A stretch of DNA of 26,067 nt from a virus. The stretch is taken from positions 1-26,067 of IMG/VR virus record IMGVR_UViG_3300037587_000121; one strand, 5' to 3'. Under the pieces are notes generated by a model. It was not told the DNA's origin, did not search any database, and saw nothing but the letters and a program-made list of their open reading frames with translations. The position numbers and the translations under genes are program-made. Positions 6,897 to 25,725 of this stretch are shown piece after piece (the first letter of the stretch is position 1; each line of letters begins with the position of its first letter).

Positions 6897-7766
6897 TTAT
6901 GATGACCTGTTTATGTCTGTCGGGCTGTCGGGATCGTCAATCGCGAATGTCATTGCCGAGGATGTGCCGTCAAGTTTTCTAGATGTTCCAACTGTTGTCA
7001 CAAATTTCAACGAAGATAACAAACTCCAAATCATATAAAGCAATTCCGCAGGGCTCGCAGGCGCTCCATCTGCGGCATAACTTTCAGTCAATGCATTAGT
7101 AAACAAGGCATCAATTTTCGTTTCGTTTGCATTGACTTCGGTAATTATCGCGCTTGCATCAGCAACGTTTTCCGCTCTGGTTGAAGGATCGTAATCAGTC
7201 AAGGCGGCATCAGCCTGCGTTTTTACTTGCGCGGCACTCAAATCATTTAGCGCGGCAATCAGTGCAGGGATAATCGTGTCTGTGCCTGAGAATATAGCCG
7301 CGAGCCCTGTTGAGTTGGCGTCCATTTCTGTTCTGTTCTCAGCGGGCGTAGGAACTGCTGTCGTGATACTTGCTTTTTGCAATGCTCCAAAATCGATGTT
7401 ATCTTGACTCGCAACATTCACGTTCTGCGTTGCAGTATCAAAATCAAAGGCATGCATGGCAGAGGCGTGCCCATATGTTTCAATAACAATAGCTTTATCA
7501 AGCCAAACCTTTGTCGCTGTTAAATCAGATAAATATATTACAATTCTTGCCGCTTGCATTTCCGTTGCAGATAAAACAAGAGAATACCCTTTGCCTTCAT
7601 CAGTAAAGCCATTTGCGGTACTGGCCTCTGCTCCTTCGTCTTTCATTATCACAGAATCACCGGCGGCATGAACAGCGTCAATCCTAAAATCAATTCCATC
7701 AATCTCAAATAATTCAAAATTGATTGTTGCCTGAACTCCATATTTCCTTAAAGTCGTTCCTTGCAT
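6897..7766 (-). CDS. Virion protein, probable fiber or adhesin-type component
   Basis: This 289-residue protein has a good Shine-Dalgarno sequence (GGAGGG). The N-terminal 110 residues form a beta-rich domain (MQGTTLRKYGVQATINFELF, FTDEGKGYSLVL, ATKVWLDKAIVIETYG). A helical Ala/Asn/Thr-rich linker follows (about 115-220, with NADAT-like repeats such as AALTDYDPSTRAENVADAS). The C-terminus has ASPAELLYMIWSLLSSLK and ends DDPDSPTDINRSS. I associate this layout with phage virion proteins near the neck or fiber genes, but no function is established. It is the third of three virion-type genes inserted between the joining protein and the tail terminator. Confidence 0.75.
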   Translation of the reverse strand: MQGTTLRKYGVQATINFELFEIDGIDFRIDAVHAAGDSVIMKDEGAEASTANGFTDEGKGYSLVLSATEMQAARIVIYLSDLTATKVWLDKAIVIETYGHASAMHAFDFDTATQNVNVASQDNIDFGALQKASITTAVPTPAENRTEMDANSTGLAAIFSGTDTIIPALIAALNDLSAAQVKTQADAALTDYDPSTRAENVADASAIITEVNANETKIDALFTNALTESYAADGAPASPAELLYMIWSLLSSLKFVTTVGTSRKLDGTSSAMTFAIDDPDSPTDINRSS

Positions 7767-7769
7767 TTT

Positions 7770-8480
7770 TTACCCTCCTTCTATTCTGCGTCTAAAAATT
7801 GATATGTCGCCACTAGGCGGCGCACCGTTATATTCTGAAGTTGGTGGCGTAAAATCGGAAGTCCAACGGGCCACACCTTTTGAAATACGAAATTCATCCA
7901 CATGTCCATTGTAATAATTACCAACACGTTCGCCCATCCTTCCAATGCTAAAATTAAAAGCTGAATCATTGATAGACGAAGTGCCAAGGTCCGCAAGCGA
8001 GGCATCAAGCACTCCATCAGCAAAAAGAAGGAAATTTATACCACTTCTTACCATTGCGTAATGATGCTGGTTCCCATCGTTAAGTCCTGTAGTTGAACCA
8101 GTTAATTGATGTGAGACTACTCCAATGTTAGTTCCTGCCCAGAAAGCTCCAGATGGTTGTATCCCACCAAAAAAAGACGCATCGATATTAGCACCAGTAA
8201 CACCAATTTGACCAAAAATAATTTCTAAAGCAGCAACCGCACCGGCTCTTCTAAACCAAGCCTCTACAGTCCAATCACCATTCCCCATAGTCCAATCAAC
8301 GGAATCAGAAAAGGTAACATATTGAGAAGATGCAGACACAAATTTTCCCGAACCCGCACCAAACTTTTTTATACCTGTATCTATTGTAGCCCCATTTACT
8401 GTAGGCGTATGCCCGGAATCACTCGAATCAGAAAAATCCGAATTCATATGAAGCAATAATTTTGTATTTGCATCTGGCAT
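7770..8480 (-). CDS. LamG-like (concanavalin A-fold) virion protein
   Basis: This 236-residue protein is nearly all one LamG/laminin-G-type jelly roll: DANTKLLLHMNSDFSDSSDS at the start, TIDTGIKKFGAGSGKF, then YVTFSDSVDWTMGNGDWTVE followed by AWFRR, then HHYAMVRSG, LLFADGVLD, NFSIGRMG, and YYNGHVDEFRISKGVARWT near residue 205. Such domains bind carbohydrate or protein ligands, and in phages they occur in fibers and capsid decorations. The C-terminus (ISIFRRRIEGG) has a short basic end. The gene looks richer in A+T than its neighbours by eye, which hints at separate acquisition. Binding of a host sugar is inference. Confidence 0.85.
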   Translation of the reverse strand: MPDANTKLLLHMNSDFSDSSDSGHTPTVNGATIDTGIKKFGAGSGKFVSASSQYVTFSDSVDWTMGNGDWTVEAWFRRAGAVAALEIIFGQIGVTGANIDASFFGGIQPSGAFWAGTNIGVVSHQLTGSTTGLNDGNQHHYAMVRSGINFLLFADGVLDASLADLGTSSINDSAFNFSIGRMGERVGNYYNGHVDEFRISKGVARWTSDFTPPTSEYNGAPPSGDISIFRRRIEGG

Positions 8481-11684: not shown

Positions 11685-12203
11685 TTATCCAGACTTTTTG
11701 ATTCTGTAATTATCAGAATTTTTTTCTACTGCTTCGAACGCTTCGAAACTGGAGAACTCATCCGCAAGCTTTGGATCTGCGTCCCACTTCTGTTTCGCGG
11801 TCATGTCACCCTTGGCGACGATAGTTTCTTCCTTTTCATCTGCGACAGCCTGAGCGGAAGTCTTTTTGATAACTTCAAGGCCGTCAACGTTTGCGGTCTT
11901 GTTTGCATTGATCATCTTAATGGCAGCCTCGCCGGGAGTTGTCTTGCCGTCAGCAATGAAAGCCTCTGCAAGTTTTTCCTGACCAACGATAGTACATTCA
12001 TTGATTCCAGAAATCCTTGCTCTCTCTTTAACAACACCAGCATCCTCGCCCGTCTTGTAACTTGCCGCCTCTGCTGTCTTGACAGCCTCAGCGTGAACGA
12101 CTTTGTTCTGATCAGCACCAACGGCAACAGCCTCGTTGTAGATGTCAGCGTGTTCCACTCTCAAATTTTCCAGATTAGCGTCCTTCTTTGTAAATGCGCC
12201 CAT
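11685..12203 (-). CDS. Nested in-frame scaffold protein (internal start in protease gene)
   Basis: An in-frame ATG at 12203 (MGAFTKKDANLENLRVEHAD) is preceded, 7 bases upstream, by a perfect GGAGG at 12215-12211. Initiation here would give a 172-residue protein identical to the C-terminal part of the protease. The sequence is helical, acidic to mixed charge, rich in Ala, Glu and Lys and without cysteine beyond one residue, typical of head scaffolds. Lambda Nu3 is made the same way from within gene C. It lies upstream of the decoration and capsid genes, the expected place. The site is seen; the protein product is inferred. Confidence 0.7.
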   Translation of the reverse strand: MGAFTKKDANLENLRVEHADIYNEAVAVGADQNKVVHAEAVKTAEAASYKTGEDAGVVKERARISGINECTIVGQEKLAEAFIADGKTTPGEAAIKMINANKTANVDGLEVIKKTSAQAVADEKEETIVAKGDMTAKQKWDADPKLADEFSSFEAFEAVEKNSDNYRIKKSG

Positions 12204-13082
12204 ATTCAGTCCTCCATGATTAATGGTTTCAATTAATAAATCAAAAGTTTTTATGTCATCGACAAGTCCAGCCTTTACCGCATCGTCACCGATAAACGTC
12301 TTGCCGTCAGCCATGTTGCTTCGTGCCTCCTGCTCACTCACTCCCCTAAACTTTGCAACGTCTCCAACGAACACATCCATGACCTTTTCAACCTGCGCTT
12401 GCAATACAGAACGACCGACATCTGTCAAAGGCGCATGTGTGGACGCAATTCTTTTATCCCTTCCTGCTGCAATCTCTGTGACAGCAATTCCCTCTTTGGC
12501 TTCGCGCAATGAGGTGTCAACGTGAGTTTTCAAAACACCAATGCTTCCAGTTACCACCGTGCCACCAGTAATAAAAACATGTTCAGCCGCCGCACCGATC
12601 CACATCGCGGCAGACATCATACTCGAAGACGAAATCGCAATTATCTTTTTTTGTTCTCGTGAATCAAAAATAAGATTTGCAAACTCTTGAACCCCAGGAA
12701 CAGTTCCGCCAGGAGATCCAATATCCAAAACGATTGTGTCAACCTGCTCATTATTCATCAGGGACTTGAAATCTGCTGTAAGACTGTCGAGAGTTGCACC
12801 CCCAAAAAGCATTGTAAAAAAACTTGACTTATGCGTGATCACTCCTTCGATTCTTAAGATGCCAACATTGTCCATGATAGTGACATCAGGAGAAAGACCA
12901 GCCTGGGAAATGTCTGCAATATCAAACGCCTGCAGATTGGCAGTGACAAGTTTCGAATCTCTCTCAAGGCCGATGATCATGTCACTTGTGAACCCAGAAT
13001 ATAAGGACTCAATTTTTGCCAACTCTGGCTCGGCTATCGCCCACAATGACGGGAACAATTTGATTTTATTTTTTGTTGCCAT
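11685..13082 (-). CDS. Prohead protease (S49 / SppA type) fused to scaffold
   Basis: This protein is 465 residues from the ATG at 13082 (MATKNKIKLF), which has an AGGA Shine-Dalgarno sequence; an in-frame ATG 15 bases upstream has none. Residues about 70-290 form an S49 (ClpP-fold) peptidase: oxyanion-type GSPGG at 122-126, the nucleophile Ser157 in MMSAAMWIG, TGSIGVL, and the likely base Lys210 in GRDKRIAS. Residues about 294-465 are helical, Ala/Glu/Lys-rich and resemble scaffold sequence. An internal start at residue 294 would make the scaffold separately, as with lambda C and Nu3. It overlaps the portal gene by 17 bases. It would cleave the scaffold and itself during prohead maturation. 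Confidence 0.9.
   Translation of the reverse strand: MATKNKIKLFPSLWAIAEPELAKIESLYSGFTSDMIIGLERDSKLVTANLQAFDIADISQAGLSPDVTIMDNVGILRIEGVITHKSSFFTMLFGGATLDSLTADFKSLMNNEQVDTIVLDIGSPGGTVPGVQEFANLIFDSREQKKIIAISSSSMMSAAMWIGAAAEHVFITGGTVVTGSIGVLKTHVDTSLREAKEGIAVTEIAAGRDKRIASTHAPLTDVGRSVLQAQVEKVMDVFVGDVAKFRGVSEQEARSNMADGKTFIGDDAVKAGLVDDIKTFDLLIETINHGGLNMGAFTKKDANLENLRVEHADIYNEAVAVGADQNKVVHAEAVKTAEAASYKTGEDAGVVKERARISGINECTIVGQEKLAEAFIADGKTTPGEAAIKMINANKTANVDGLEVIKKTSAQAVADEKEETIVAKGDMTAKQKWDADPKLADEFSSFEAFEAVEKNSDNYRIKKSG
12211..12215 (-). promoter_or_regulatory. Internal ribosome binding site for nested scaffold
   Basis: The sequence GGAGG on the minus strand, inside the protease reading frame, ends 7 bases before an in-frame ATG. 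It is as good as the sites of the free-standing capsid genes and stands exactly at the protease-scaffold boundary. Confidence 0.65.
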
Positions 13083-14691
13083 CTTCTGTTTCCTCATTCA
13101 AAGGGTTGTCAATATTTTTATTCACATCATCCACTTCCTCGTTTGGCGCTGCCACCTCTGGAACCACAGGAGTCATCATCTGTCGAATGGCCAGAAGTTT
13201 CTTTTGCTCTTTTGCTATTTGCTTAATGTTCTGATCAAAGTCAATTCCCATTGCGGCAGACTCAATTGAAATGTTGCTGAAAAATCCATCGACTCTTGCC
13301 TGGGCCGCGGCTGTTTCTTTTGTCGGATCGATCTGGCCAGCGGCAGGGCCAATCCAAAGATTGCCAAGATAAGCTTTTCGCATTAAAGGATCCGTTAGGA
13401 ACCCAGGAGCGATTATTCTTTCCCTGAGAACAGCTTCCTCCATCCAGAGTTCATAGACCAAATTGCAGAAGTGATCAATCATAAATGATCTGCGAGTCAA
13501 GAAAACTTTCCAAGCGTTCAGCATTGCAGTCCTTGCAGCCGAATAACTTTTCGTAAAATGTTGAATGAGCAATTCGAACGGAAGCCCCAGGGCGGTTCCG
13601 ATCTGTCTCAAAATGCTCTGGACAAAAGGATCGAACGTTGCATTTGGTCTTCCTGGGTTCGCTGTAGAAATTTCCTCTCCCTCTGCGAGTCCTACAATAG
13701 CACCTGATCCCATTGTGTAATCTTCGTCAGTCGATTCCCCGCCTTCGTCGCTAGGCAAGAACGTTGAGAAGTTCCCACCTCCGTCAGGGGTGGTCACGAA
13801 CACTGTGAAGTAGGATGAAATGACAGCACTTTGCAATTCGGCGTCAGTGTACTTTCCGAGCTGGTGCAACATCTCAATCACTGGCGCAAGATAAGGAACG
13901 CCTCTTGTCTGCCCTGGCCTCAACTGTTCATAAATGTGAATTATTTTCCTTCTGCCATTTCCAGTGAAGGCACTTATCGAATCCCACTTCCTTTCGATTG
14001 GAGTTGACTGAGACCCCGGATGGGTTGTCCGAACCCAATACTTTTTTGGGGTCCCGTCTTTTTTCTTTGCGATCCCGCCTGCCAGTGTTGTAGTGTCTGG
14101 CTTATTGTTCGGGTTCTCAATTCTGTCAGCTTCGAGAGCTTGCAATCTTAATCCATAGTTGAGAGTGTTGATTTCTTTGAACAACGGAAGAACAAAACAA
14201 TCACCACTTTCAAGAACAGATCTGAAAACAAGATTTTGGTAGTCATAAAAATTCTTGCCTCTGTTGATGTCGCAATCGAGAGACTCGGCCCATGAATTAA
14301 ATTCCCGCTCCGCTTTCTGTTGCCACTTGTCAGCGTCGTCCTCGCTCATGTTCAACACATCTGCATTGATCCTTGATTGCATCTTCAAGCCAGACCCAAT
14401 AACATGAACTTGATTTGTCTTGATCGCACCAGAAGCGATTGGAGTGTTCCTTAACAGCGAACGACTTCGGCTTCTTATCGTTGGCAGGTCATCCAGGGAG
14501 TCAGCGTCAGCGTCTCCGGTCTTTGGATCGAAATTTTTAATCGTCCTACGCTTCTTTGATCCAGCATTATAGGCGCCAGCGATGCCAACAAAGTTGTGCT
14601 TCTCAATCATGTTCTGTTGAGCGATCAATGGCAAGGCTGCCATGTTGATAGGGCCGTCGCTATTTGCTAGTTGATTTAGATTGTTTTTCAT
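13066..14691 (-). CDS. Portal protein, lambda gpB family
   Basis: This 541-residue protein forms the dodecameric ring through which DNA enters and leaves the head. It carries the lambda-type portal pattern: AYNAGSKKRRTIKNFDPKTG near residue 40, DADADSLDDLPTIRSRSRSL, RNTPIASGAIKTNQVHVIGS near 85, GLKMQSRI, then ESGDCFVLPLF, RLQALEADRIENP, GVPYLAPVIEMLHQLGKYTD, LGLPFELLIQHFTKSYSAAR and TRRSFMIDHFCNLVYELWM. The C-terminus is acidic and Asn-rich. It overlaps the preceding small gene by 32 bases and the protease gene by 17 bases. The order (large terminase, small connector-like genes, portal, protease) is the lambda order. Confidence 0.93.
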   Translation of the reverse strand: MKNNLNQLANSDGPINMAALPLIAQQNMIEKHNFVGIAGAYNAGSKKRRTIKNFDPKTGDADADSLDDLPTIRSRSRSLLRNTPIASGAIKTNQVHVIGSGLKMQSRINADVLNMSEDDADKWQQKAEREFNSWAESLDCDINRGKNFYDYQNLVFRSVLESGDCFVLPLFKEINTLNYGLRLQALEADRIENPNNKPDTTTLAGGIAKKKDGTPKKYWVRTTHPGSQSTPIERKWDSISAFTGNGRRKIIHIYEQLRPGQTRGVPYLAPVIEMLHQLGKYTDAELQSAVISSYFTVFVTTPDGGGNFSTFLPSDEGGESTDEDYTMGSGAIVGLAEGEEISTANPGRPNATFDPFVQSILRQIGTALGLPFELLIQHFTKSYSAARTAMLNAWKVFLTRRSFMIDHFCNLVYELWMEEAVLRERIIAPGFLTDPLMRKAYLGNLWIGPAAGQIDPTKETAAAQARVDGFFSNISIESAAMGIDFDQNIKQIAKEQKKLLAIRQMMTPVVPEVAAPNEEVDDVNKNIDNPLNEETEDGNKK

Positions 14692-14923: not shown

Positions 14924-15136
14924 TTAAACTGTGGATATTCCACGAATCTGAATTCCACCTCTGTTCGCTTTTGCGATCTGACTTGTCCAGAATGTTATCT
15001 CCTCACGAAGATCCTTGACTTTCTGATTCGTTTTTGACCTGTTCCCTACTGTGTACTGCAAAGAGTTCAACGCCGCGGCATAGGCTGCATTTGCATTGGC
15101 GAGATTCGTTTCCATTTCCACTGTTGTCAATGCCAT
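14924..15136 (-). CDS. Small head-tail connector-like protein (gpW-like / DUF6148-type)
   Basis: This protein is 70 residues from the ATG at 15136 (MALTTVEMETNLANANAAYA). The layout is a first helix of about 25 residues, a short TVGNRSKTNQ turn that resembles the SIGDRSLTR segment of small phage proteins between large terminase and portal, a second helix (VKDLREEITFWTSQIAKAN), and a basic RGGIQIRGI end. In lambda the gpW protein occupies this position and plugs the filled head. Sequence similarity to gpW itself is weak, so the family call is tentative. Its first 11 codons recur on the upstream gene. Confidence 0.7.
   Translation of the reverse strand: MALTTVEMETNLANANAAYAAALNSLQYTVGNRSKTNQKVKDLREEITFWTSQIAKANRGGIQIRGISTV
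15104..15136 (-). repeat. Gene-start repeat, copy 1 (MALTTVEMETN)
   Basis: The first 33 bases of the connector-like gene match the first 33 bases of the upstream zinc protein at 26 positions and encode 8 of 11 identical residues. The CTAAT sequence just before the start also matches. The rest of the two genes is unrelated. Confidence 0.7.
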
Positions 15137-15137
15137 A

Positions 15138-15392
15138 TTAGATACTAGTCCCTTCACCTAAACATTCAGTACATCCAAATAACCCCATTGGCTCTACGCC
15201 TGAGCCATTGCAATGCTTACAAATATCAGATTCTATCAATGTGTCCTCATGGCATTGTTTACATATTAAATTACAGTCAGTAGAATTATCTATGTACTGA
15301 GGGAAGACATTTTTGTCTATTTTATTGCAACAACAAGCACATCTAATCAACTTATCCGTATTCGTTTTCATTTCTGTGATAGTCAATGCCAT
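15138..15392 (-). CDS. Zinc protein with two CxxCxGxG motifs, borrowed gene start
   Basis: This 84-residue protein has CACC at 18-21, C40, CKQC at 44-47, and two DnaJ-type CxxCxGxG motifs at 58-65 (CKHCNGSG) and 74-81 (CTECLGEG). These motifs form zinc sites in DnaJ-type chaperones and many small phage proteins. Residues 1-11 (MALTITEMKTN) nearly copy the start of the next gene (MALTTVEMETN), although the rest is unrelated, which marks a fused or inserted body. The stop codon is 1 base before the next start. A J-domain protein is encoded 4 kb upstream; a functional link is speculation. Confidence 0.7.
   Translation of the reverse strand: MALTITEMKTNTDKLIRCACCCNKIDKNVFPQYIDNSTDCNLICKQCHEDTLIESDICKHCNGSGVEPMGLFGCTECLGEGTSI
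15360..15392 (-). repeat. Gene-start repeat, copy 2 (MALTITEMKTN)
   Basis: This is the second copy of the 33-base start region described at 15104-15136, here fused to a Cys-rich body. The 26 of 33 matching bases include the first 10 in a row and GAAATG and ACGAAT blocks. Confidence 0.7.
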
Positions 15393-15395
15393 TAG

Positions 15396-15614
15396 TTACG
15401 CGTCTCCCGTATTCGCTATATTGAAAATCATTCCGTCAACGACTGGCACCCAGTCGCGACAATTAAGAATTCCTTGTACGCCTTCAATTCCCCTGCTATA
15501 AGTCACCGTTGGCATCTGCAATACTTCTTTGTTTGCAAGAAAAACTACCGCACTGTATCCCAGCGTGTCAATCTCTACTCCCTTTTCAACGCCATTAATA
15601 ACTATTGTTTTCAC
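15396..15614 (-). CDS. Small protein, possible ubiquitin-like beta-grasp fold
   Basis: This 72-residue protein starts with GTG that overlaps the large terminase stop (GTGA), a coupling arrangement. The likely secondary structure is beta hairpin (KTIVINGVEKGV), helix (TLGYSAVVFLANKE), strand (MPTVTYSRG), then VPVVDGMIFNIANTGDA. This order and the VDGMIFN ending resemble phage and bacterial ubiquitin-like small domains. There is no Gly-Gly end, so a conjugation role is not indicated. It lies between the large terminase and connector-like genes. Function unknown; the fold is a guess. Confidence 0.65.
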   Translation of the reverse strand: MKTIVINGVEKGVEIDTLGYSAVVFLANKEVLQMPTVTYSRGIEGVQGILNCRDWVPVVDGMIFNIANTGDA

Positions 15615-17530
15615 CCTATTTGAATTCCCTTTGAAATAACCCTTCGCTTTGGCTTTCGCCTCTGCGGCTGACTTGCTTTTTGATTACCATCTTGCTTTAC
15701 ATTATCCAGCGGAGCTTGTAAAGTTATATTTTCTTTTTTTGAAATATCCTCTAACATCTGCGAGACTGTAGCGTTCGGATAAAGCCAATATTGTAAAATG
15801 TTCAAAGCCACTATTGCATAGACGAAAGTGTCAAGAGCTTCGTTCCTTGCCCGACTCGTATTCTTCCAGACTTTTCTCCTCTTGCCCTTGAACCACTCTG
15901 TCACTTTTCGTTCAGAACAAAGTTGATGAAAATAAGTTTCTGGCATTGTTAATGGAAAGTGAACATATCCAGCCCCAGGGAGTTCTGTTTTCAAGCACTC
16001 GTTCAAGTGATCTTTTGCAGTATCAGTTCCGACTACAAATAAATAGGCGCCTTGCTGTTTCGAAGGAGCTTTGACGATTGGCTGGTTGTATGAGCTTGCA
16101 CCTTTAATGGCAAACACATACCTGATCTTCGGAGTATATCTCGTTTTTGTGAACTCATAAACTTTCGCAGGATAGTGACCACCAGTGTCAATCGCTGCCG
16201 ACATAATTCTCATTCGTTGCCCACAAGCATGGCGATATGATTTCAAAAGAAAATCATCAAGGTGTGACCAGATTTCAAGATCAGATAACTTCCCATGAAA
16301 AGTTTTATATTCCACAACATAAGTTTCGTAGTCAAGGCCGAAGCCAATAACCTGAACTTCGATTCTGTCATCTTGAATGTCAACCCCTGCTGTCAACAGA
16401 ATGATTTTTTCGTTTAGCGGCTCAGGATTGTAAGCCTCTCTTCTGTTGAACAATTTCTCCCAGTTCATTTTTGGATCCATAACTTCTTCCCAGGGAGTAG
16501 CGTCAACGTCATTTGTCCAAGTCTCTCGATCTTCTATGTAAGTCGGGTTGCCTTTCTTTTTCTTTTGCAGAATTTTTAGATGCTTGTTTACTGCACTCCT
16601 CCACTTGCTACTTCCGAGGACTGAATAATATTGAGGAAGTCTAAACCCTGGATATTTTCCATCTGGATTTCCCGGGATCCATTTTCCTTTCTGTAGCATT
16701 GCGAGTTTCTGGCTCTCGCTGATCAACGTCCCGCAACCTTCACACGCCAGAAGCACCTCTCCAGTGAGTTTAAACGTTTCCCGATTGTATTCGAACTTGA
16801 GGTTCTTCCATTTCAACGTCTGCATGTGACCGCACTCAGGGCAAGGAAGAAAGAATTCTCGCTGATCTGACATGAGGTACTCTGCCCAGATTATAGAATC
16901 AACGAGCTTTTTAGGAGAGGAGCAAAGAAAGATTTTTCTGTTGGAAAAGGTCTCAGTTCTTTCGATAGCTTTTGAGACTGTCCAGCCTGGGTACATGTCA
17001 ACTTCGTCAAGTCCGAGAAAGCGAATAGGCTTGGATCTGAGAGTGTCTTCCGAATTAGCTGTGAGAATGTTGACGCTGCCGCCTGGGAACTCTTTCATCA
17101 TAGTCGTGTTCCCTGCTTCACGTTCACGAGACTTCGCAACCCTATTATATAAAACGGGAGTGCAGTCGATCATTGGTTGGAGTCTTTGCTTCGAGAAGAT
17201 TTCTCCAGAGGAGAGTGTTGATTGAACGACAGCCGCTGGGCCCGGCATCAAGTGAATGATTTCACCAAGCCAATTCAGAATACATTCTGTTTTTCCGAGT
17301 TGTGTCCCAGAAACAAAAACGATATATTCCTCTGGACTGCTAGCCGAGAGGCATGACATGATTTCACTGAGATATGGAGTCCGCTCGTTTCTCCAACGCC
17401 CAGGCTCGGCAGAACCTTTCGAAGATAATATCCGAAACTGTTCTGCCCATTCCTGAACCTGAAGATCTGGATCGAGTGTCAATCCCCTGAGAGCGGCCTT
17501 TGTGAATATTCCTTTCTTGATTGCGACCAT
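15611..17530 (-). CDS. terL: Terminase large subunit, GpA-like
   Basis: This protein is 639 residues from the ATG at 17530; a TTG 18 bases upstream would give 645. Neither has a clear Shine-Dalgarno sequence. It is the packaging motor and DNA cutter. In 639-residue numbering: Walker A GTQLGKT at 75-81, Walker B GLDEVD with Asp175/Glu176, zinc insertion CPECG at 230-234 with CEGCG at 263-267, and nuclease acidic residues Asp384 (AGVDIQDDR) and Asp448 (AAIDTGG). WRNERTPYLSEIM near residue 46 is typical of the GpA family. The C-terminus is basic and Gln-rich (QPQRRKPKRRV). The small subunit lies 2.8 kb upstream, separated by accessory genes. Confidence 0.93.
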   Translation of the reverse strand: MVAIKKGIFTKAALRGLTLDPDLQVQEWAEQFRILSSKGSAEPGRWRNERTPYLSEIMSCLSASSPEEYIVFVSGTQLGKTECILNWLGEIIHLMPGPAAVVQSTLSSGEIFSKQRLQPMIDCTPVLYNRVAKSREREAGNTTMMKEFPGGSVNILTANSEDTLRSKPIRFLGLDEVDMYPGWTVSKAIERTETFSNRKIFLCSSPKKLVDSIIWAEYLMSDQREFFLPCPECGHMQTLKWKNLKFEYNRETFKLTGEVLLACEGCGTLISESQKLAMLQKGKWIPGNPDGKYPGFRLPQYYSVLGSSKWRSAVNKHLKILQKKKKGNPTYIEDRETWTNDVDATPWEEVMDPKMNWEKLFNRREAYNPEPLNEKIILLTAGVDIQDDRIEVQVIGFGLDYETYVVEYKTFHGKLSDLEIWSHLDDFLLKSYRHACGQRMRIMSAAIDTGGHYPAKVYEFTKTRYTPKIRYVFAIKGASSYNQPIVKAPSKQQGAYLFVVGTDTAKDHLNECLKTELPGAGYVHFPLTMPETYFHQLCSERKVTEWFKGKRRKVWKNTSRARNEALDTFVYAIVALNILQYWLYPNATVSQMLEDISKKENITLQAPLDNVKQDGNQKASQPQRRKPKRRVISKGIQIG

Positions 17531-17961: not shown

Positions 17962-18032
17962 AACATCTCCTTCCTTTTAACATTATTTACGCAAGGCCGA
18001 GCCACTCAGGTTTGAACCTCTCTCGTTCTCTC

Positions 18033-18109
18033 ACTTGCGGGTTGGAGTTGAACCAACGATCCCGTGTCCCCGTTTCATTGGAGCGTGGATACCCTTGCAC
18101 AGCCGCTAA
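18033..18109 (-). other. tRNA-like element, possibly degenerate tRNA-Phe(GAA)
   Basis: The 150-base gap between two genes holds a tRNA-like layout on the minus strand. A perfect T-arm (GTTGG, loop TTCAACT, CCAAC) is at 18057-18041. A D-arm has stem GTG/CAC and a loop with AAGGG and TA. An anticodon loop ATGAAAC has T33, GAA and A37. The acceptor TTAGCGG/CCGCAAG has 6 of 7 pairs, one a wobble. Against it: the anticodon stem has two mismatched ends, position 8 is not T and the variable region is 9 bases. It may be a relic or chance. An alternative fold closes 18099-18093 with 17996-17990. Confidence 0.3.
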
Positions 18110-18113
18110 AAAA

Positions 18114-18362
18114 TTATCTTTTTTTGTTATATCGTTTCAGTCTGCGCTTTCCTTCTTTCGGTGACATTCCCGCCCTGTTCAGCATCGCCGCGAATGATAA
18201 TATGGCAATTCTTGCGTGAGACTGTTTTCGCTTTTCTTCTTCCGATACCGCAGGATCAGGAGTCTCAAGTTCTTTCAGTGTAGCCTTGACCATTTCTTTC
18301 TTTCTGATTATCGATTTTGCTTTTCGTTCTTCAAATGTTCCGCGTCTATTCGCTTGGCCCAC
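18114..18362 (-). CDS. Small basic protein with RRGTFEERK motif
   Basis: This protein is 82 residues from the GTG at 18362, chosen because AAGGAGG stands 6 bases before it. The opening VGQANRRGTFEERKAKSI resembles small phage proteins with an (A)NRRGTFEERK start. The rest is helical and very basic, with a Glu/Pro patch (KELETPDPAVSEEEKRKQS) and a hydrophobic helix (ARIAILSFAAMLNRAGM), ending KRRLKRYNKKR. It overlaps the end of the upstream endonuclease relic by 17 bases. It may bind nucleic acid; function unknown. Confidence 0.7.
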   Translation of the reverse strand: MGQANRRGTFEERKAKSIIRKKEMVKATLKELETPDPAVSEEEKRKQSHARIAILSFAAMLNRAGMSPKEGKRRLKRYNKKR

Positions 18363-18878
18363 GTCCAACCTCCTTTTTGACCACAATGGGTCTTTTGTTA
18401 TTTGCTTGCTCCTTTAGAGTGCTCCACTTACAGTTAGAAGGCTTGTAACCGCCCTCGTTATCCTCCCTGTCAATGGTTTTGTCTTTTGGTCTCTCGCCCA
18501 TATCGTTATAAAAGTTTTCAAACTTTAGCCATCTTTTGCAAACAGTAATTCCGCGTCCTCCATAATATTTATAATTATGTGCATCTTTATTAAAACATCT
18601 GTTTTTCATTTGCTGCCACGTTGTATATGTCTTTGTGCCGCAACCCCGTGTTTGATTTTTGCATTTAAAGGGCTGGTTGTTTTCCACAAACACCCACAAG
18701 ACTTTGTTCTGCCGGATCCCAAGTGATCACCGCGCACAATTTTTTCCTCTCCGCAATCACATTTAACAAGCCAGCGCGCTTTGCCATTATTAGACAAGCC
18801 GTGATATCCCAGCACATTTAATCTGCCAAATCTCAACCCCGTTAAATCTTTTCTTTTTGATGATATAATTTTCAACAT
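18346..18878 (-). pseudogene. HNH endonuclease (AP2/HNH homing type), frameshifted
   Basis: Two overlapping frames together encode one recognisable protein. Frame 1 (from 18878) has KDLTGLRFGRLNVLGYHG, the CDCG and SCGCL zinc-type motifs and ends after KHG. Frame 2 resumes with TKTYTTWQQMKNRCF, KYYGGRGITVCKRW, TIDREDNEGGYKPSNCKWST and EQANNKR, the HNH signature of phage homing endonucleases. The switch lies at the G4 run 18647-18644: one more G would read KHGGCGTKTYTTW with no gap. The gene starts 7 bases inside the end of the VRR-NUC gene. Both halves look intact otherwise, so the break is recent or a sequencing error. Confidence 0.85.
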
Positions 18879-23439: not shown

Positions 23440-23522
23440 TGGCGGAGGCCAGAGAATCGAACTCTGTACGGTTTCACCCGTCACGGTTTTCAAGACCGTT
23501 TGCAACCATTTGCCTACTGTCC
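23440..23522 (-). tRNA. tRNA-Ser(TGA), imperfect acceptor stem
   Basis: The anticodon arm ACGGT, CTTGAAA, ACCGT gives TGA, a long variable arm follows (class II) and the T-arm CAGAG, TTCGATT, CTCTG is perfect. A G and encoded CCA end it. The acceptor is faulty: 5' GGACAGT faces 3' GCCTCC, only the outer GGA:TCC pairs hold, and the 3' strand is one base short. It may be decaying or rebuilt from two tRNAs. It reads UCA-type serine codons if active. Confidence 0.75.
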
Positions 23523-23533
23523 AAATTTTAAAA

Positions 23534-23616
23534 TGGGTGTGGACGGAATCGAACCGCCACTATCCCGAAGGAGACAGATTTACAATCTGCCGCATTTCCC
23601 AATCTGCCACACACCC
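23534..23616 (-). tRNA. tRNA-Tyr(GTA)
   Basis: The acceptor GGGTGTG pairs fully with CACACCC. The anticodon loop TTGTAAA gives GTA, the variable arm is long (CTCCTTCGGGA hairpin) and the T-arm is GGCGG, TTCGATT, CCGTC. The discriminator is A and CCA is not encoded. It is 2 bases after the Ser(GCT) tRNA. Confidence 0.93.
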
Positions 23617-23618
23617 TT

Positions 23619-23707
23619 TGGCGGAGAGTATAGGATTTGAACCTATGTAGGTTTTACCCTGTCTCGGATTAGCAATCCGGCCCATTACCAGACTCTGGCA
23701 ACTCTCC
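23619..23707 (-). tRNA. tRNA-Ser(GCT)
   Basis: The acceptor GGAGAGT pairs fully with ACTCTCC, followed by G73 and encoded CCA. The anticodon loop TTGCTAA gives GCT, the variable arm is long, and the T-arm is ATAGG, TTCAAAT, CCTAT. It begins 6 bases after the exonuclease stop codon, so it is probably processed from a shared transcript. It reads AGC/AGU. Confidence 0.93.
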
Positions 23708-23713
23708 AGGTTT

Positions 23714-24280
23714 TTAAACGGCTCCGAGGCATTTCAAATAAACAGCTCTCGTGATCATCGTATCGTAGGCAGCATCATGAGCCTTGCTTTCGTCAACCTC
23801 AATTTTCAAATACTTTGCAACTGTCATCAATTTGAAGTTCTCAAACTGACTTCGGACTTGCCTGTACTTCACGGCAACCATATTCGACACATCAATGGCA
23901 GGCCAAAAGAAATAACTGCCATAATATTTATCGTGACATCTCTTGAACCACTCCCGAAGGAACCCGTCATCGAATCGAGAATTATATCCAACGAGCGTGA
24001 ACTTGTCAGAGCGATCAAACCTGTCAACGTACTTGTTCAAGATTCTTATAAATTGAATATAGCAATCGTGAGGATCAGCAAAAGTTTCAATCTGCGAACG
24101 AGTAATCCCGTTTGCTTCCAGCGCCTCGTCCTCAATCACCTGACCAGGAAATGGTTTCATTTTAAAGTCGAATGAATAATCTCTCACTCCGTCAAGCTCG
24201 ATTGTTCCTGCAAGTTGCAAAATAGGATTCACCTTGTCATCCGTCCCGCCTGTCTCAACATCAAAATAAATTGTTTTCAT
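23714..24280 (-). CDS. DnaQ-like 3'-5' exonuclease (DEDDh)
   Basis: This 188-residue protein has the full DEDDh set: Asp7 and Glu9 in FDVETGG, Asp104 in VGYNSRFDDGF, and His168 with Asp173 in SKAHDAAYD. The fold is the RNase H-like exonuclease of DnaQ and RNase T. It would degrade or proofread single-stranded DNA ends or trim RNA. No polymerase is encoded in the window, so the partner is unknown. The Shine-Dalgarno sequence is AAAGGAAAG. The first 10 codons and this site are duplicated 397 bases upstream at the start of a chimeric ORF. Just after it come three tRNAs, so a role in RNA end trimming cannot be excluded. Confidence 0.9.
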   Translation of the reverse strand: MKTIYFDVETGGTDDKVNPILQLAGTIELDGVRDYSFDFKMKPFPGQVIEDEALEANGITRSQIETFADPHDCYIQFIRILNKYVDRFDRSDKFTLVGYNSRFDDGFLREWFKRCHDKYYGSYFFWPAIDVSNMVAVKYRQVRSQFENFKLMTVAKYLKIEVDESKAHDAAYDTMITRAVYLKCLGAV

Positions 24281-24282
24281 TT
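24250..24282 (-). repeat. 33-base direct repeat, copy A (exonuclease start)
   Basis: This is the native copy, covering the first 10 codons of the exonuclease gene and the 2 bases before them. It is identical over 33 bases to 24647-24679; the similarity continues through the Shine-Dalgarno sequence with one indel. Confidence 0.9.
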
Positions 24283-24298
24283 CTTTCCTTTCGTTTTG

Positions 24299-24323
24299 AG
24301 TTGTTCGAAAAATTCGAATAACT
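24299..24323 (-). promoter_or_regulatory. Hairpin or dyad operator before the exonuclease gene
   Basis: On the minus strand an 11-base arm AGTTATTCGAA and TTCGAACAACT (10 of 11 pairs, 3-base loop) stands 19 bases before the start codon. No U-run follows, so a terminator is unlikely; an RNA hairpin or a dyad protein site is more likely. Confidence 0.4.
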
Positions 24324-24336
24324 GATTAAATTATTA

Positions 24337-24552
24337 TTATCCTTCCCAGCCACACTCTGGACAATAGACTCGATTGTTTTCACAATACCCACAAGGAGGA
24401 TTGCTGATAGCAGAACAACAACAAGACCCTTCCTCCCTCTCTATTATCCCAGGACAGAAATCCCGATTGCAAATTTCATCCTCACAATACCCGACCACGT
24501 GTTCGCTCAGTTCCTCAATCTTTATTGCAAGACGTTTCAAGAGTTTAATCAT
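24337..24552 (-). CDS. Cys-rich small protein, duplicated-cassette copy 2
   Basis: This 71-residue protein has residues 1-15 (MIKLLKRLAIKIEEL) that nearly copy the start of the gene at 24658-24873, with 39 of 45 bases equal. The rest differs: C23, C28, C33, C44-46, C54, C57, C64 and C67 (NPPCGYCENNRVYCPECGWE) form at least one zinc ribbon with a CGYC...CPEC layout. It starts inside the stop of the chimeric ORF (ATGA). It is probably a zinc-binding regulator or small accessory protein; function unknown. Confidence 0.68.
   Translation of the reverse strand: MIKLLKRLAIKIEELSEHVVGYCEDEICNRDFCPGIIEREEGSCCCSAISNPPCGYCENNRVYCPECGWEG
24508..24552 (-). repeat. MIKLLKR gene-start repeat, copy 2
   Basis: This covers 15 codons, with 39 of 45 bases equal to 24829-24873. 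Both copies start with ATGA overlapping the stop of a gene that ends in ERARA. Confidence 0.8.
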
Positions 24553-24677
24553 TTCGCCCTCGCCCTTTCCAACATATAGGCGCCCCTGATATTCTCAAAC
24601 CAACAAACGGCTGTGCCACACAAAATTTCTGCGGGATGTGTTGTCACTGTCTCAACATCAAAATAAATTGTTTTCAT
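24549..24677 (-). CDS. Chimeric 42-residue ORF at duplication junction
   Basis: The ORF starts MKTIYFDVET, an exact copy of the exonuclease start with its Shine-Dalgarno sequence, and continues THPAEILCGTAVCWFENIRG and AYMLERARAK, which match the end of the gene at 24870-25103 (YPAEVLSGHTAVGWF, YLLERARA). It thus joins the start of one gene to the end of another. The join falls where the two parents share FDVET and FETET. It likely arose by tandem duplication. It may be translated, but it lacks the exonuclease body and the N-terminal half of the other parent, so it may do nothing. Confidence 0.6.
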   Translation of the reverse strand: MKTIYFDVETVTTHPAEILCGTAVCWFENIRGAYMLERARAK

Positions 24678-24679
24678 TT
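24647..24679 (-). repeat. 33-base direct repeat, copy B (chimeric ORF start)
   Basis: This is identical to 24250-24282, in the same orientation, 397 bases away. It opens the chimeric ORF at 24549-24677. Confidence 0.9.
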
Positions 24680-24873
24680 TTTCCTTTCTTAAAATTCACC
24701 ATTGTCTTGATTTCTTTTATTGCAATTTCTTCTTTTGTTGAATATTTCATAAACCACCGTTCGCATCCCGACGGCGTATCGTGTCTATACTCTTGAATCC
24801 CATCATACTTTTCTTCTGGATGCCCATTCAGCTTTTCAATCTTTTTTGCAAAACGCTTCAAGAGTTTAATCAT
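24658..24873 (-). CDS. Small protein, duplicated-cassette copy 1
   Basis: This protein is 71 residues from the ATG at 24873, which overlaps the upstream stop (ATGA); a longer frame runs back into the upstream gene. It begins MIKLLKRFAKKIEKL like copy 2, then differs (HPEEKYDGIQEYRHDTPSGC ... STKEEIAIKEIKTM). Its last 10 residues (GKNENNLF region) are read from the Shine-Dalgarno sequence and start of the copied exonuclease segment in another frame, so the original end was probably altered by the duplication. Function unknown. Confidence 0.62.
   Translation of the reverse strand: MIKLLKRFAKKIEKLNGHPEEKYDGIQEYRHDTPSGCERWFMKYSTKEEIAIKEIKTMVNFKKGKNENNLF
24829..24873 (-). repeat. MIKLLKR gene-start repeat, copy 1
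   Basis: This is the upstream copy of the 45-base start region matching 24508-24552 at 39 positions. Confidence 0.8.
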
Positions 24874-25103
24874 GTGGCCGCCCTCGCTCTCTCCAGTAAA
24901 TAACAACCACTGATTCCCTTGAACCAGCCAACGGCAGTATGACCACTCAACACCTCTGCTGGATATCTTGTTTCAGTTTCAAACTCACTACCGTCATCTT
25001 TAGTGACAATCACCTTTTGCCCAACAGCATATTTATTATTCCAATCGTCAACCTTTTTCTGTTCCTGCTCTGTTATCTTCTGTTGCCTTTTACTGATCTT
25101 CAT
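24870..25103 (-). CDS. Small phage protein of the KDDGSEFET / ERARA type
   Basis: This 77-residue protein begins with a charged helix (MKISKRQQKITEQEQKKVDD), followed by a small beta barrel: KYAVGQKVIVTKDDGSEFET, TRYPAEVLSGHTAVGWFKG, SGCYLLERARA. The VGxxVxVTKDDGSE...TR...LxGHTxV...YLLERVR layout is a small phage protein family of unknown function that I have seen in early gene regions. Start and stop each overlap a neighbour by 1 to 4 bases. Its C-terminal third is duplicated in the chimeric ORF at 24549-24677. Confidence 0.72.
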   Translation of the reverse strand: MKISKRQQKITEQEQKKVDDWNNKYAVGQKVIVTKDDGSEFETETRYPAEVLSGHTAVGWFKGISGCYLLERARAAT

Positions 25104-25315
25104 TAAAAAAGCCTTTCCGTTTTATAGATTTTCGTATTCTTAAACATGCCAACATCAGTGTAGCCTTTCTTGATCATTTCGTTCCTGCAACGTGTCGCGG
25201 CAATAGAGCATTTGAATTTTCGAGACCTGTTCAGTAACTCGCCTTTCTTCAATCCGGAGACAGTGAAGCGAACAATCTTTTTTTCATGCACCTGCTGATT
25301 CGGATCACCACTCAT
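25103..25315 (-). CDS. Hypothetical small basic protein
   Basis: This 70-residue, basic protein (MSGDPNQQVHEKKIVRFTVS) ends MFKNTKIYKTERLF. The middle (RSRKFKCSIAATRCRNEMIK) is helical with two Cys. The start overlaps the upstream stop (ATGA) and the end overlaps the next ATG by 1 base (TAATG). No family is recognised. Confidence 0.65.
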   Translation of the reverse strand: MSGDPNQQVHEKKIVRFTVSGLKKGELLNRSRKFKCSIAATRCRNEMIKKGYTDVGMFKNTKIYKTERLF

Positions 25316-25539
25316 GATGTCTCTTCCTCTTGAAACTCTGCGTCAACAACTTCGTATTTTTCTTCCTGCGCTTTGTGGATCCGATGAATCATGTGAGGCA
25401 AAATATATATTGAAGCTTCGTGACTCTGACAGTAATTTCCAGAGTCATCAATCCAGAATCCTTCACGCACTTTGCAAAGTTCATCTGTCTCAGTGACTTT
25501 CGAAATCCCATCCAACTCAAATGTGATTATCAATTTCAT
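25312..25539 (-). CDS. Small protein, paralog of the upstream gene
   Basis: This 75-residue protein (MKLIITFELDGISKVTETDE) is related to the 60-residue protein just upstream: LCKVREGFWIDD against LDKLKNGFLIDN, and SIYILPHMIHRIH against RYWIPPSQIDHIE. The predicted fold is a small beta barrel (strand, VREGFWIDDSG hairpin, YILP strand). It has an acidic tail (VVDAEFQEEETS). The Shine-Dalgarno sequence is GGGAG. The pair looks like a tandem gene duplication. Function unknown. Confidence 0.68.
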   Translation of the reverse strand: MKLIITFELDGISKVTETDELCKVREGFWIDDSGNYCQSHEASIYILPHMIHRIHKAQEEKYEVVDAEFQEEETS

Positions 25540-25542
25540 AAT

Positions 25543-25725
25543 TCAACTCCCTCCAATTTCTATGTGATCGATTTGGGAAGGCGGGATCCAATATCTCGCA
25601 CACTCCAAAGATTCTGTGAGCCGATTTCGATTGTCAATCAAGAATCCATTCTTTAATTTGTCAAGATGATCAGCCTCGACAGTCAGTGTAAATTGTTTGA
25701 AACGATACACGCAAATAAAATTCAT
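25543..25725 (-). CDS. Small protein, paralog of the downstream gene
   Basis: This 60-residue protein (MNFICVYRFKQFTLTVEADH) ends IPPSQIDHIEIGGS and is the partner of the gene at 25312-25539. The shared core is the short helix-turn, an N/EGFxID(N/D) hairpin and a final xIP/LP...I..I strand. The Shine-Dalgarno sequence AAGGAA lies inside the end of the upstream gene, which overlaps by 4 bases. Function unknown. Confidence 0.68.
   Translation of the reverse strand: MNFICVYRFKQFTLTVEADHLDKLKNGFLIDNRNRLTESLECARYWIPPSQIDHIEIGGS

Follow-up and report, generated by a model that had tools for sequence, protein, structure and literature searches.

Start-associated sequences of cluster K mycobacteriophages are short upstream elements found at many genes. 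In Island3, genes 67-68 share ~60 bp at their 3' ends, and Brujita carries one copy; two explanations were offered by the authors, one of them being recombination with an unknown partner genome (PMC3029335). Rad52-like recombinases are responsible for relaxed homologous recombination between divergent temperate phages (PMC3945230). Here, we describe a locus in which neighbouring small genes share their starts. An identical case of start sharing was not found in the literature, the only counterpart found being the mirror-image one of Island3/Brujita.

Layout of the locus and its repeats

The source record is a 26,067-bp fragment of a tailed phage, a virus record and not an isolate; the whole of this stretch is referred to below as the window. 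A search of IMG/VR gave three distinct phages in synteny with it: L002 (G001), L006 (G002), and L011/L012 (G003/G004). Over a large part of the structural region, G002 and the window are 86-89% identical. Between homologous blocks, small genes appear to be ordered differently in G002 and in the window (L023:5250-6920 versus window 17982-18871): in the reversed window, the matches at 7197-7380, 7691-7951, and 7959-8086 are out of order.

All genes of the region are encoded by the minus strand, in the order A, B1, a hybrid ORF composed of a C start and an A' end, B2, and C (Table 1). The match of gene A to its family covers most of the profile (positions 10-66 of 70, E=1.4e-8), and its product is predicted to be a small helix-plus-beta-barrel protein (pLDDT 85). 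A known PDB fold was sought for this protein and none was accepted, since only weak Tudor/SH3-like matches were obtained (E>0.05). Gene A ends with ACATGA, which overlaps the start of B1. The coding bias of B1 is best in its own frame. The final 10 B1 codons (KKGKNENNLF, 24658-24690) run out of frame through the upstream copy of the C start; judged from this arrangement, the repeat created the B1 C terminus incidentally, and the end of B1 is thus hybrid as well, a point omitted from the earlier note. The exonuclease encoded by gene C has a full-length domain match (PF00929, residues 5-181, E=5e-14; also phrog_192), and an 86% match to it is present in L002. Genes for tRNA-Tyr and tRNA-Ser (23534-23707, minus strand) are located directly downstream of C, ahead of a MazG-like pyrophosphatase gene. 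Another stretch, at ~23440-23520, resembles a tRNA but received no ARAGORN call.

Table 1. Positions of genes and repeated segments in the window
Feature	Position	Strand	Description
Gene C	23714..24280	-	188 aa; intact DnaQ-type 3'-5' exonuclease (RNase_T)
C-start copy, resident	24250..24292	-	start of intact exonuclease
Gene B2	24337..24552	-	71 aa; leader and Zn-ribbon-like body, phrog_22771
A'-end and B2 leader	24507..24655	-	155-nt repeat copy nearer C
Hybrid ORF C'A'	24549..24677	-	42 aa/codons; MKTIYFDVET followed by VTTHPAEIL...LERARAK
C-start copy, upstream	24647..24689	-	ribosome-binding site and first codons
Gene B1	24658..24873	-	71 aa; shared leader MIKLLKRFAKKIEKL and body without relatives
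A-end and B1 leader	24828..24982	-	155-nt repeat copy farther from C
Gene A	24870..25103	-	77 aa; phrog_9165
D1	25312..25539	-	allele type alone in relatives L002 and L006
D2	25543..25725	-	allele type alone in relative L011/L012; 29% identical to D1
Head-tail adaptor, resident	14924..15136	-	phrog_118; start MALTTVEMETN
Zn-type gene with adaptor-like start	15138..15392	-	start MALTITEMKTN, like that of the next gene, fused to CxxC Zn-type body
Tract, most likely imported	15137..15700	-	ends in foreign start and Zn body

Both repeats reported in the earlier note, a 33-nt exact one (24250-24282 and 24647-24679) and a 45-nt one at gene starts (24508-24552 and 24829-24873, 39/45 matches), are present as described. 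When gaps were allowed, the former extended to 43 nt with 97.7% identity (self-BLAST, E=7e-15), while the latter is part of a 155-nt, 72% identical repeat that spans the A and A' ends and the B starts (self-BLAST, E=1e-18). The two units share order and orientation. To compare starts, all ORF starts of the window were scanned pairwise, in register, over 36 bases. None of the 39,583 distant pairs (>3 kb apart, whole window) reached 24/36; nearby pairs of the A-B-C locus scored 33/36 and 31/36, and a third pair, 15392/15136, scored 26/36. The same scan revealed no comparable pairs in the three relatives. Chance similarity of the repeats is ruled out by self-BLAST and the scan together. At all three start pairs, the truncated copies are upstream of the intact ones. 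Another repeat, 11916/12273, was rejected as a gene duplication, because both of its copies are inside one long ORF (11685-13097).

The hybrid ORF consists of ten exonuclease-start codons (MKTIYFDVET) joined in frame to the end of an A-type gene (VTTHPAEILCGTAVCWFENIRGAYMLERARAK, the last ~32 codons). The earlier note was right about the head-to-tail arrangement and about a hybrid ORF whose two parts meet at a short motif common to both; the motif is GAGACAG, with ~7 nt shared at the join. The exonuclease body is missing, and from C only motif I (DVET) is kept; no match was found in Pfam or PHROG, so there is no full-length RNase_T domain. The A part lacks the helix and the first strand of the predicted fold, together with the family's invariant His of GHTAV. 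Given that a single exonuclease motif is left and that these elements of A are missing, the hybrid ORF product is probably not an exonuclease or other enzyme. For the same reasons, it is highly improbable that selection has kept it as a fusion protein with a function of its own, and no homologue with the same fusion was found. The fusion is in frame, its coding bias is best in its own frame, and its start, ribosome-binding site, and stop are all intact, but an in-frame join is expected by chance in 1 in 3 cases. The hybrid ORF ends with AAATGA, which overlaps the B2 start. The hybrid ORF may persist because its own ribosome-binding site and this ATGA overlap could keep B2 translated.

Relatives of the phage and further stacked loci

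A single B gene is present in 3/3 syntenic relatives, always as a leader with a Zn body; the proteins are 70% (L002), 86% (L006), and 53% (L011/L012) identical to B2. Because all three relatives share this form, the Zn-type B is ancestral in the phage group, with B1 as the odd copy. A Zn body derived within the window is ruled out by the same observation, and the proposal of the earlier note that B2 became a zinc-type protein therefore has to be abandoned. Gene A, B1, and the hybrid ORF occur in 0/3 syntenic relatives, and C occurs among them in L002 only; by this comparison, it is A, B1, and the hybrid ORF that are new in the window. Beyond the leader, the B1 and B2 bodies are indeed unrelated, as had been suggested: both nucleotide and protein scores were within those of shuffled sequences, which rules out that the body of B1 is a Zn body that has diverged; it is a replacement. 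In 5/5 B contexts, the upstream gene overlaps the B start via ATGA, consistent with translational coupling. B2 is a mosaic relative to G002, with 80% identity in the leader and 100% in the last ~100 nt, a difference showing that crossovers do occur between leader and body.

No relatives of B1 were found among phages, in IMG/VR, or by a search of genomes with the leader pattern. With the leader pattern, IMG/VR yielded no junction between A and a leader, and the 84,980 genomes of bacteria and archaea yielded no match; the exonuclease C, searched in genomes, also gave no match. Other phages carrying A do not have B next to it, and the genes downstream of A differ there. A single-unit A-B-C allele in related phages, which would follow from the duplication envisaged in the earlier note, was not found; the relatives with one B lack A altogether.

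A second case is located at 15.1-15.7 kb, where a Zn-type gene and the head-tail adaptor have similar starts, with 7/33 bases different (79% identity). G002 and G003/G004 contain the adaptor only; the Zn-type gene is absent, and the site is empty. The adaptor start is identical to that of G002 (33/33). Identity to G002 is 50-78% in 15396-15700, the alignable part of the tract, and mostly 85-98% above 15710 and below 15136; it shifts sharply at the borders, 15700/15136, as it does inside B2. Since the tract has diverged from G002 while the resident start is identical to it, the upstream adaptor-like start was most likely imported with the tract rather than freshly copied from the resident gene. 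An imported tract at 15.1-15.4 kb argues for DNA exchange between two phages rather than for a duplication inside a single one. A search for relatives of the 15.1-kb Zn gene gave no convincing candidate. Beyond gene A, D1 and D2 (25312-25725) are adjacent homologues which, judged by their distribution in the relatives, are two alleles of one locus stacked together. Stacked pairs of this kind were not seen in the three relatives. For the D alleles, genomes carrying them were found; B1 and the 15.1-kb Zn gene had no such match.

Possible origin of the partly repeated cluster

The two copies have diverged very unequally: 29% in the A-end (26/90), 13% in the leader (6/45), and ~2% in the C-start (~1/43), the A-end versus C-start difference being significant (Fisher p=0.00015), and the B bodies are unrelated. 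Changes between the A and A' ends are distributed 9/3/14 over the codon positions (p=0.03; third versus first and second, p=0.013, on the basis of 30 codons). Because they concentrate at third positions, the two ends probably diverged under selection, A and A' both being working genes in the meantime. A is closer to its counterparts in the unrelated phages L004 and L017 (74% and 69% identity over 35 residues) than to A' (63%). The single duplication proposed in the earlier note therefore holds only in part: the head-to-tail order and the hybrid ORF stand, while one in-genome duplication followed by drift does not agree with repeated parts that differ so unequally.

We consider it somewhat probable, and the most economical reading, that the locus is the scar left when two divergent relatives of the phage recombined out of register (over length). 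In the scheme that we infer, there were two parents and a single crossover. Parent one would have provided A-B1 and the start of its own exonuclease gene C, and this DNA would have been joined at GAGACAG, just inside C, into the middle of A' of parent two, which would have provided A'-B2-C. The product would be a cluster with a part repeated head to tail and with units from different parents, which would account for the unlike B bodies and for the divergence of the A ends. Such a product could survive, as no gene would be lost: the truncated copies would be upstream, with resident B2 and C intact. A RecT protein (PF03837) is encoded by relatives G001 and G002. The second case at 15.1-15.7 kb, the stacking of D1 and D2, and the mosaic B2 also speak for such recombination. 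The unequal divergence of the copies fits this recombination, because conservation between phages of the group varies in a similar way, C being ~97% identical to L002 just after its start, B leaders ~80%, and other regions ~70-74%. No phage with A-B1-C or with A'-Zn-C, the two expected parents, was found. Against two parents, the C copies are the same over their first ~15 nt, yet different in L002 (about 5/31 nt); such near-identity in otherwise diverged parents requires recent exchange or gene conversion. The leaders also speak against it, as B1 matches B2 at 40/48 positions and the relatives at 34-37/48; B2 versus L006 is 40/48 as well.

Several other origins have to be weighed against out-of-register recombination. 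Tandem duplication of A-end/B/C-start in one genome, after which A' diverged, the B1 body was replaced in a later recombination, and gene conversion made the two C starts alike, would account exactly for order and orientation, for the A-B junction with ATGA overlap that occurs twice here and was seen nowhere else, and for AAACTCTTGAARCGT, which is common to the B1 and B2 leaders and was not found in relatives. We nevertheless regard it as rather unlikely, since it requires these further events, leaves the very unequal divergence among segments to be explained, and conflicts with an A' that changed as a working gene rather than as a fragment, and with single-B relatives that have no A. The old split between A and A' combined with a fresh C-start copy could also be produced stepwise, if in an older A-B1-A'-B2-C array a short C-start copy later replaced the front half of A', with ATGAAAA and GAGACAG as the sites of a template switch or of gene conversion. 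ATGAAAA does begin an A-family gene (in L003), but a phage with two full A genes was not seen, and two events are invoked where one may do; such cassette shuffling is unlikely.

It is distinctly unlikely that the phage group has a recurrent route of gene birth, in which new bodies would be fused to a copied resident start, gaining a ribosome-binding site and a start while the resident gene stays intact downstream; B1/B2, C'/C, and the Zn/adaptor pair would be the cases. The assembly of the record was considered as well, since it is a virus record rather than an isolate, the assembled sequence was analysed and not the reads, and several loci are stacked in the window versus none in the three relatives. 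Two metagenome strains could have been stacked head to tail in one contig, but a mis-join at a 33-43 nt repeat would collapse both copies into one rather than create the C'-A' join, which shares only ~7 nt. The hybrid frame is also open, with the ATGA overlap intact, and between the copies at 15.1 kb there is a new body whose gene borders are clean. An artefact of this sort is, we think, very doubtful.

Comparison with known systems

Products of out-of-register exchange are rarely observed in phages, as their traces fade or none is left at the mosaic border. In this 26-kb contig, both copies of the shared piece are kept at several sites, and for one of them a relative has an empty site. Such sites could reveal the way in which hybrid small ORFs form in phages and the reason that a new body can be expressed at once, and their value is that of a clear case study.

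As in Island3/Brujita, an extra small gene without homologues shares an end with its neighbour, and a close relative is single-copy (PMC3029335). In contrast to that case, where the 3' end is shared, here it is the 5' start (and the A-end), several sites are found in one contig, and a hybrid ORF is present. The locus resembles exchange by Rad52-like recombinases in having diverged sequences with short identical stretches, and RecT of the relatives belongs to that class (PMC3945230); the outcome here, however, is out of register, with a partial duplication left behind. The similarity to start-associated sequences of cluster K mycobacteriophages consists in short conserved sequences at translation starts within one genome (PMC3203893), but in our case coding starts are involved, and they are common to two neighbours only. 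The process is already known in phage genome change, and the locus is an unusually clear example of it rather than a new system.
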